A stretch of 64,000 nt of DNA from Burkholderiales bacterium. Lineage in GTDB: Bacteria; Pseudomonadota; Gammaproteobacteria; Burkholderiales; SG8-41. The position numbers were made by a program, and so were the translations under genes. A model generated the notes under the pieces. It was not told the DNA's origin and did no database searches. It saw only the letters and a program-made list of their open reading frames with translations. The stretch spans positions 1-64,000 of the forward strand of contig JAUXYA010000034.1 in NCBI GenBank assembly GCA_030684405.1, read 5' to 3'. This document shows positions 49,215-51,217 of this stretch, in pieces (position 1 is the stretch's first letter; each line of letters starts with the position of its first letter).

Positions 49215-50405
49215 TCAGCCTGAGAGGCCGCGCTGCAGGTCGGCCTCAATATCCTCGAGGTTCTCCAGCCCGACGGCGATGCGCAGCAAACCGTCACCAA
49301 TGCCGGCCGCGGCGCGTGCTTCCGGCGTGATGCGGCCGTGGGTGGTCGATGCCGGGTGGGTGATCGTGGTCTTGGTGTCGCCGAGGTTGGCGGTGATCGA
49401 CAGCAGGCGCGTGTGGTCGATGACCCGCCACGCCGCATCCTTGCCGCCCTTGAGGTCGAAGGACACGATGCCGCCACCCGACTTCTGCTGTTTCAGCGCC
49501 AGCGCATGCTGCGGATGCGAAGGCAACCCCGGGTAATACACCCGCGCCACCTGCGGCTGCTGCTCCAGCCACTGCGCGAGTTTCAGCGCCGATGCACACT
49601 GCGCCTGCAGGCGGATGTTCAGCGTTTCCATGCCCTTGAGGATCACCCAGGCGTTGAAGGCGCTCAGCGTCGGTCCGGCGGTGCGCAGAAAACCGAGCAC
49701 CCCCTCGTAAACCACCTCCTTCTTGCCGAGCACCGCGCCGCCGAGCACGCGCCCCTGGCCATCAAGGTACTTGGTCGCCGAGTGAATCACCACGTCGGCA
49801 CCGAATTCCAGCGGCCGCTGCAGCGCCGGCGAGCAAAAGCAGTTGTCGACGGCAAGCAAGGCGCCGGCACGATGGGCGACATCGGCGAGCGCCGCGATGT
49901 CGTACACCTCTGTCAACGGGTTCGACGGCGTCTCGACATAAAGCAGCCGTGTTGCCGGCTTCATCGCAGCCTGCCAGGACGAGACATCAGTGCCGGAAAC
50001 GAAGGTGGTGTCGATGCCGAAACGTTTCAGGATCGTGCCGAAAAGTTGCACTGTCGCGCCGAAAACGCCGGCCGAGCAGACGACGTGGTCGCCGGACTTG
50101 AGCAGCCCCATCGCCGTCGACAGGATCGCCGCCATGCCCGAGGAGGTCGCGATGCAGCACTCCGCGCCCTCCAGCGCCGCAAGTCGCTGTTCGAACATGG
50201 TCACGGTCGGATTGGTGAAACGCGAATAGATATTGCCCGGCTGCTGGTTGGAAAACCGCGCCGCCGCCTCCGCCGCCGACTTGAACACAAAGCTCGAAGT
50301 CAGGTACAGCGCTTCGGCGTGTTCGCCGAACTGGCTGCGTTCGATGCCGGCACGCACCGCCAGCGTGTCCATGCCCAGGCCTTCCGGATTGAATGTCTTG
50401 TCCAT
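49215..50405 (-). CDS. metZ: O-succinylhomoserine sulfhydrylase
   Basis: A 396-residue PLP enzyme of the Cys/Met gamma family, making homocysteine from O-succinylhomoserine and sulfide. I use ATG 50405 (MDKTFNPEGLGMDTLAVRAG), with GGTGGAG before it. The PLP Lys lies in HSATKYLDGQGRVLGGA, and the GMAAILSTAMGLLKSGD and NPLTEVYDI regions are typical. It is preceded on its own strand by a SAM-II-like riboswitch and intrinsic terminator, so it is methionine-controlled. Confidence 0.95.
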   Translation of the reverse strand: MDKTFNPEGLGMDTLAVRAGIERSQFGEHAEALYLTSSFVFKSAAEAAARFSNQQPGNIYSRFTNPTVTMFEQRLAALEGAECCIATSSGMAAILSTAMGLLKSGDHVVCSAGVFGATVQLFGTILKRFGIDTTFVSGTDVSSWQAAMKPATRLLYVETPSNPLTEVYDIAALADVAHRAGALLAVDNCFCSPALQRPLEFGADVVIHSATKYLDGQGRVLGGAVLGKKEVVYEGVLGFLRTAGPTLSAFNAWVILKGMETLNIRLQAQCASALKLAQWLEQQPQVARVYYPGLPSHPQHALALKQQKSGGGIVSFDLKGGKDAAWRVIDHTRLLSITANLGDTKTTITHPASTTHGRITPEARAAAGIGDGLLRIAVGLENLEDIEADLQRGLSG

Positions 50406-50426: not shown

Positions 50427-50462
50427 AAAAAAACCCGATTCAGCATTCTGCTAAACCGGGTT
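50427..50462 (-). terminator. Intrinsic terminator in the metZ leader
   Basis: On the minus strand AACCCGGTTTAGCA and TGCTGAATCGGGTT form a long stem followed by seven T. The GAAT loop separates the arms. It lies 22 bp before the metZ start, downstream of the putative riboswitch, and is the likely expression platform. Confidence 0.85.
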
Positions 50463-50465
50463 GCC

Positions 50466-50550
50466 CACGCTTTAGCCGCATTTTTTCGGACTGCCTCCCC
50501 GGTTCTGGGTCGGCCCCGGCGCCCGCAAGCTGATCGTCAAATCGGCGCAG
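50466..50550 (-). ncRNA. Candidate SAM-II-type riboswitch upstream of metZ
   Basis: On the minus strand the order is: CTGCGCC stem arm, loop GATTTGACGATCAGCTTGCG, GGGCGC stem arm, an extra spacer, then GAAAAAATGCGGCTAAAGCG. SAM-II (metA motif) has the same signature elements: P1 stem around a GATTTGA..GCTTGC loop and a GCTAAAG pseudoknot strand preceded by an A-run. The spacer (about 35 nt) is longer than in classical SAM-II. It is followed directly by an intrinsic terminator and metZ, a known SAM-II target. Confidence 0.75.
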
Positions 50551-50581
50551 GGAGAAGACTAACCCGGACCGGCGGAAACCG

Positions 50582-51217
50582 TCAAACCGGGCGCTCGCCG
50601 TCGACCAGCCGCGCCATCAGCGAAGCCTCCGCATCACCGCGCGCGCGGAAACCGGCAGCAACACCGTCGCGGTCGGCTTGCGCACGGTTCTGGCTGACCT
50701 TCCACTTGCCTTCGATGGACGTCACCGGGATCTCGATGCCGACAATGGCCTCGAGCATGCGGTCGATGTACTCCGTCGGTGCATCGCCGACACCCCAGGG
50801 TTGCGGCCGGCCCGTCTCCTGGCTACCCGTCAGGCGCGACACCAGGCCACGCAGCCAGTCGCGATCGTCGCGAATCACCAGTGGCCCGCGGACATGGACC
50901 ACGACATAGTTCCAGGTTGGCACCACCTTGCCATGCTCGCGTTTGGACGGATACCAGGACGGCGTGACATAAGCCTGCGGTCCCTGGAACACCGCCAGCA
51001 CTTCGCCGTCCGGAACTTGCCGCCACAGCGGATTGCTGCGGGCGACGTGGCCGCGCAGCGTGCCGTCGGGCGCGGGGTCGGCTTCAATCAGCAGTGGCAG
51101 ATGGTTGGCCTCGATGACGCCTCCGTGCACGCTGGAAAGCAGCGCCAGCGGATGTGCGCGGATCAGCGCATGCATCACCTCGATGCGGGTTTCCCGGAAC
51201 GCCGCGACTTCGTACAT
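50582..51217 (-). CDS. PaiB-family FMN-binding protein
   Basis: A 211-residue protein of the PaiB family (FMN-binding split-barrel, annotated as negative transcriptional regulator). Typical are MYEVAAFRETRIEVMHALI at the start, FQGPQAYVTPSWYPSKREHG and VVPTWNYVVVHVRG. It lies between purF and metZ on the same strand, 16 bp after purF; these two are usually adjacent, so it is probably an insertion. The true role is unclear. Confidence 0.85.
   Translation of the reverse strand: MYEVAAFRETRIEVMHALIRAHPLALLSSVHGGVIEANHLPLLIEADPAPDGTLRGHVARSNPLWRQVPDGEVLAVFQGPQAYVTPSWYPSKREHGKVVPTWNYVVVHVRGPLVIRDDRDWLRGLVSRLTGSQETGRPQPWGVGDAPTEYIDRMLEAIVGIEIPVTSIEGKWKVSQNRAQADRDGVAAGFRARGDAEASLMARLVDGERPV

Follow-up and report, generated by a model that had tools for sequence, protein, structure and literature searches.

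Among the described systems closest to the element reported here is the metA element (Corbino 2005; Rfam RF00521, SAM_alpha), which has the same P1 helix, conserved loop, pseudoknot strands and GCUAAAG segment in the same order, is likewise associated with methionine genes and in many published cases is followed by a downstream terminator. SAM-II elements with terminators, betaproteobacterial ones included, have already been published (PMC1273637, PMC2258182, PMC2704228), and translational SAM-II elements are known from Sargasso metX (PMC6061858, PMC10907184). At the metZ gene of Sinorhizobium meliloti, an alphaproteobacterium, the SAM-II terminator yields a short RNA of ~100 nt, consistent with termination, and the accessible text of that report makes no mention of an L3 hairpin (Scheuer 2022, PMC9373788). 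For betaproteobacteria, Leyn 2014 described a metXZ element in metX and metZ leaders, with six conserved regions, a terminator and a pseudoknot of regions 1-4 and 2-6; in the accessible portions of that paper the authors do not call it SAM-II, and report SAM_alpha in Rhizobiales and Rhodobacterales only (PMC4239095). Two further families come close: RF01726 (SAM-II long loops, Weinberg 2010) is by name a SAM-II with enlarged loops, listed for Bacteroidetes and marine sequences, and SAM-V has a pseudoknot of the same kind (PMC6061858), its published members being translational.

We compare with these systems an element upstream of metZ in the window (the whole 64,000-nucleotide stretch that was analyzed), for which a betaproteobacterial host is supported. 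A preliminary description of this DNA had placed SAM-II signature elements in order at 50427..50550 and named no strand; we observe them on the minus strand, to which the features below belong, with GAUUUG, GCUUGC and GCUAAAG all present in the expected order and the aptamer core (50549-50467) followed by a terminator and then metZ. A -35-like box (TTGACG, 50580..50585) is separated by an 18-nt spacer from a -10-like box (TAGTCT, 50556..50561), which stops 6 nt short of the P1 region. The 5' strand of P1 (GCGCC, 50544..50548) pairs with its 3' strand (GGCGC, 50519..50523), giving five pairs in the window, with a U-C mismatch at the outermost sixth position; between them lie the conserved L1 segment GAUUUG (50538..50543) and the 5' strand of the pseudoknot helix P2 (GCUUGC, 50525..50530), the latter assigned from complementarity alone. 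The difference from RF00521 is a 32-nt insert in L3 (50487..50518), directly adjoining P1, which is predicted to form an extra hairpin, P3, with its relatives as the chief support. The A-rich remainder of L3 (AAAAAAU, 50480..50486) corresponds to AcAAAU of compact relatives and is followed by the P2 3' strand (GGCTAAAGCG / GGCUAAAGCG, 50468..50477), which contains GCUAAAG and would double as the 5' strand of an antiterminator. An intrinsic terminator comes next (50427..50462), with a 14-bp stem (arms 50462-50449 / 50445-50432), a GAA loop and seven U (50433-50427) at -19.4 kcal/mol, bearing out the strong terminator noted earlier; its 5' arm contains UUUAGC (50450..50455), which complements GCUAAA and is the candidate antiterminator 3' strand. 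Between the terminator and the start codon lies AAGGTGGAG (50415-50407), ~55 nt past P2. The putative regulated gene, metZ (49215..50405, ATG at 50405-50403), is a methionine gene, as expected behind a SAM-II element, and encodes an O-succinylhomoserine sulfhydrylase (396 aa; NF006003, 716 bits). The intergenic gap before it measures 176 nt, and a gene for a 211-aa FMN-binding-domain protein (PF04299, 50582-51217) lies between purF and metZ. That gene's stop codon (50584-50582) shares bases with the -35-like box of the putative riboswitch promoter. Further upstream, in the same direction, we find purF and a CvpA-like gene (77.4 bits, under the model cut-off of 264).

With respect to covariance models, Rfam at gathering thresholds gave no match anywhere in the window. 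A permissive search with RF00521 returned a partial match of 16.2 bits (gathering threshold 36) that covers model positions 11-41, the P1 half only, likely because of the long L3 insert. RF01726 was discarded as a home for the window element, which it did not match at E <= 10, and SAM_V matched nothing in the window at gathering thresholds or permissive settings. We therefore turn to a model built from related leaders (R1), in which 48 of 154 P1-keeping elements were aligned (24 compact and 24 long-L3 with an assigned gene). R1 excludes the window element and its three nearest relatives (L036, L037, L038) and contains metX and metY leaders from the window's own genus, so that the holding out is by element and not by genus. 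The window element scores 62.7 bits with R1, and its alignment runs the whole length of the model, the hairpin being treated as an insertion; the E-values (3.9e-17 for the window, 2.2e-15 for the whole 3.7-Mb genome) come from a calibration that the search program itself rates as rough. In the whole-genome search the only other strong match is the metX leader (73.8 bits), which is not in the model, and the next match reaches 14.9 bits. That genome carries a compact SAM-II upstream of metX that exceeds the Rfam cut-off (38.2 bits with RF00521). Three weak RF00521 matches in the genome (L003-L005, 12-14.2 bits) were set aside, R1 being strong for the metX and metZ copies only. The covariance-model search that the preliminary description had suggested would, with Rfam alone, have misled as a refutation test because the Rfam model does not cover the hairpin form.

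P1 is further supported by covariation, with both-sided changes in 4/6 pairs among relatives; 16 cells with such changes were counted in 44 distinct relatives, a number that 0/500 shuffles reach. Its outermost pair is open in 11 of the 44 rows, as it is in the window. The P2 strands are complementary in the window and invariant in all 44 distinct rows; since the search patterns demanded those letters, P2 has no demonstrable covariation. Taken whole, the leader has an unexceptional fold (z -1.69, with 13/200 shuffles equally good), which we dropped as evidence because it is weak. By homology of sequence and structure, the element is a SAM-II riboswitch, for which SAM binding is predicted.

The enlarged loop or longer spacer reported earlier is indeed a long L3, with the correction that it holds the hairpin P3. 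We scanned genome contigs for elements with a long L3 and retrieved at least 119 stretches, which were selected on the long L3 and not on insert structure and do not amount to a census. Among the matches listed, 107/119 combine a long L3 with a P1 of four or more pairs. Of the other 12, 10 lack such a P1, L100 was matched first in a compact form, and L103 duplicates the leader of L046. Among 80 of these at least 119 stretches that were listed with titles, 55 name betaproteobacterial taxa by our count, and the remaining titles point to relatives of Legionella, to Hyphomicrobiales and other Proteobacteria, and to a small number of further phyla. Adding 8 elements from metZ relatives to the 107 listed scan elements gives 115 elements with 108 distinct inserts. 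Among the matches listed, these inserts fold better than their dinucleotide shuffles (mean z -2.04; P <= 0.05 in 62/108); 91/108 form at least 4 pairs and 17/108 form fewer. In the 91 folding inserts, again among the matches listed, the P3 stem begins 0-1 nt past P1 in 82 and ends 5-13 nt before GCUAAAG in 84.

We also paired the 5' halves of 80 inserts that are less than 70% alike with their own and with other inserts' 3' halves, a design by which relatedness is reduced and not removed. Among the matches listed, the mean energy is -9.5 kcal/mol with the own 3' half versus -5.1 kcal/mol with others (80 inserts), and the own half ranks within the best 5% of partners in 41/80 inserts (4 expected) and within the best 10% in 51/80. 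Across the insert set, the predicted helix is conserved by position, not by sequence. The window insert by itself folds at -15.0 kcal/mol, but with P = 0.06 against its own shuffles. Whole-leader folds keep the inner GCC-CCC/GGG-GGC part of P3, and its outer GGG can pair with a CCC just before P1, a segment absent from any transcript that begins at P1. Structurally, P3 may stack below P1 as a support, with the remainder of L3 roughly unchanged. Our literature search for SAM-II elements with an additional hairpin, in L3 or elsewhere, found none announced among the matches listed; subscription papers, figures and supplements lay outside its scope, and such a hairpin may be known there. Huang 2018 describes P3 as absent from SAM-II, the P3 of that paper being the one of SAM-V (PMC6061858, as far as its accessible text goes).

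Concerning the expression platform, the only terminator-like site that a scan of the window leader returns is on the minus strand, and among the matches listed a terminator was found in 105/152 elements with enough DNA, with none in 47/152. We compared the complementarity of the P2 3' strand to the terminator arm with that to shuffled arms. For metZ leaders with a terminator, P is <= 0.05 in 19/37 and <= 0.2 in 29/37, the window leader having 0.03; the corresponding counts are 7/14 and 9/14 for metY leaders and 11/22 and 16/22 for leaders of unassigned genes. The metX leaders give only 2/32 and 3/32, which rules out this antiterminator as a general rule for betaproteobacterial SAM-II and means that metX leaders must work some other way. 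P exceeds 0.2 in 8/37 metZ leaders (L012, L046, L047, L051, L108, L135, L154, L167), two of which, L046 and L047, have a long L3 and belong to the same family as the window genome. In the window, the lowest-energy fold pairs GCUAAA (50476-50471) with UUUAGC (50455-50450) when the transcript ends at 50450, 50446 or 50442; another fold is best for the transcript ending at 50438, and the terminator is best from 50434 onward, pseudoknots being outside the fold model. The local energies are -12.1 kcal/mol for the antiterminator versus -19.4 kcal/mol for the terminator, so switching would need to be kinetic, and these folds suggest that metZ control is likely of this kind. SAM would bind the P1/P2 pseudoknot, probably stabilizing it, and GCUAAAG would then be held in P2, letting the terminator form and turning metZ off; without SAM, GCUAAA would instead base-pair with UUUAGC in the terminator arm, and RNA polymerase would read on. 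The metZ element is in all likelihood a SAM-II-class riboswitch, a structural variant with P3 in L3, that controls metZ by transcription attenuation.

A switch acting on translation, instead of or besides transcription, with SAM binding hiding the ribosome-binding site, would be in line with the Sargasso metX elements (PMC6061858, PMC10907184) and with L078, a relative of another subtype that has a Shine-Dalgarno-like AAAGAGGAG at its P2 3' strand, and whole-leader folds do pair part of the terminator-to-start stretch with earlier leader segments. In the window, however, the 14-bp terminator separates P2 from the start codon and AAGGTGGAG is as far as ~55 nt past P2, and we consider translational control here unlikely. 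Slightly less credible still is the possibility that the hairpin and U tract merely terminate the transcript of purF and the FMN-binding-protein gene, next to a decayed or non-switching SAM-II-like relic. The upstream genes do run in the same direction, the gap measures 176 nt, and the terminator is stable alone; against this, the core aligns across the full R1 model, three relatives with 92-97% metZ identity retain it, and a promoter-like site stands right before P1. Such sites, ending 3-10 nt before P1, occur in 31/51 metZ leaders versus 0.05 expected from shuffles, and also in 16/40 metX, 13/14 metY and 11/48 unassigned leaders (0.35 expected from base shuffles for all leaders together). 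Corbino 2005 remarked on the same arrangement (PMC1273637). A generic promoter scan, which required 9 of 12 matches, called none at the window's TTGACG-18-TAGTCT (8/12).

The opposite strand carries a similarity of its own. RF02424 ('Burkholderia sRNA', Bp2_287) aligns end to end with the + strand of the window, opposite to the transcribed strand, at 17.9 bits compared with a gathering score of 70. A small antisense RNA with merely secondary minus-strand similarity is scarcely credible and we reject it: although the family stems from Burkholderia sRNA predictions, 8/15 selected members of which (Bp2_287 not necessarily among them) were detected by RT-PCR (PMC3521395), that RT-PCR was, according to the accessible text, oligo(dT)-primed, so the strand is unsettled, the score is low, and the terminator-like site, promoter-like site and SAM-II core are all on the minus strand. 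At gathering scores RF02424 matches 7/17 loci searched (L001 and 16 long-L3 loci), and in 7/7 Burkholderia/Paraburkholderia loci (L066, L086, L122, L129, L131, L142, L144) it is antisense to a SAM-II with its terminator. The Bp2_287 consensus contains the complement of GAUUUG, CAGCUUGCGG and GCUAAAGC plus a terminator, but Rfam catalogues the family as an sRNA encoded opposite to SAM-II. A review table gives RIT77, with BTH_s31 and Bp2_287, as expressed (PMC10987360), and this expression would fit a short terminated riboswitch transcript.

Among the genomes examined, RF00521 exceeds its cut-off in 34/61 (the own genome and 60 relatives), and R1 matches at E <= 1e-5 in 85/120 genomes drawn from the order. 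At the metZ loci of relatives, our own included, the core is found in 17/30, comprising 9 with a compact L3 (GGGCGC and GCTAAAG 12 nt apart) and 8 with a long L3 (the window, L036, L037, L038, L039, L046, L047 and L054). The core pattern has no match at the other 13/30 metZ loci, one of which (L044) is from the window's own genus, so not every metZ carries the element. Such elements also precede metX, metY, metH, metK and MetN- and SsuA-like genes, among others. R1 scores the metX leaders of Burkholderia, Paraburkholderia, Cupriavidus and Limnohabitans genomes as SAM-II-like, at 44.2-55.5 bits; judging from these scores and its published description, the metXZ element is very probably SAM-II.

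Several variants were observed alongside. A subtype with a G-run/C-run P1 (L070, L078, L087, L106, L109, L114, L124, L139) has its predicted start 18-20 nt downstream of the initial G of GCUAAAG in 6/8, a position that suggests translational control; of the genes behind it, those checked were metK at L124 and, at L078 and L087, one for an AAA-type ATPase with no assigned role (PF07728). In two metX leaders (L217, Paraburkholderia, minus strand; L218, Burkholderia, plus strand; both near base 1500), CGAUUGC replaces CAGCUUGC, L3 is hairpin-like and CUGAC/GUCAG could lengthen the pseudoknot. Tandem SAM-II-like units 97-168 nt apart occur at L194, L196, L198, L199 (= L231), L201, L230 and L078:560-800, the second unit being mostly of variant type; at L078 a terminator-like hairpin follows the first unit and the Shine-Dalgarno-like AAAGAGGAG lies at the 3' strand of the second. 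We dropped tandem SAM-II as a novelty, 44 examples having been published before (PMC9481103).

A further SAM-II-like variant, CGCCGAGUUAA..GACAACUUGC(A/G)GGGCG...GCUAAAGCGUC, is present in metK leaders (L219-L221, L224-L229, L232-L236, with L219 slightly different). Its exact pattern occurs in 13/120 genomes of the order versus 0 for a backward-read control, and 11/13 are directly upstream of metK. No Rfam family matched those 11 at E <= 1, nor L219-L221 at E <= 0.05, and our literature search returned none among the matches listed. It may represent a SAM-responsive leader of SAM synthetase not described before.

In the main, the preliminary description is upheld. The terminator-bearing betaproteobacterial SAM-II that it singled out for confirmation is present but, given the publications cited above, not itself new; what merits attention is the hairpin recurring in L3, together with what it implies for annotation. 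At gathering thresholds RF00521 reached its cut-off at only L001 of the 17 loci searched, missing the window element and 16/16 other long-L3 loci; SAM-II elements are thus probably more numerous, and spread over more hosts and genes, than current counts suggest. This SAM-II form offers an explanation both for the published orphan leader metXZ and for the opposite-strand sRNA family RF02424. We give an even chance to the broader proposal that SAM-II has a large unmodelled structural subclass, mostly betaproteobacterial, with a sequence-unconserved hairpin P3 beside P1 in L3, which would unify the metXZ element and the Bp2_287 sRNA and stand beside the metK variant, and in which P3 may tune folding speed or affinity, letting different methionine genes within a cell switch at differing SAM concentrations. 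The natural series with and without the hairpin in one aptamer would test the role of peripheral helices in a small pseudoknot riboswitch.
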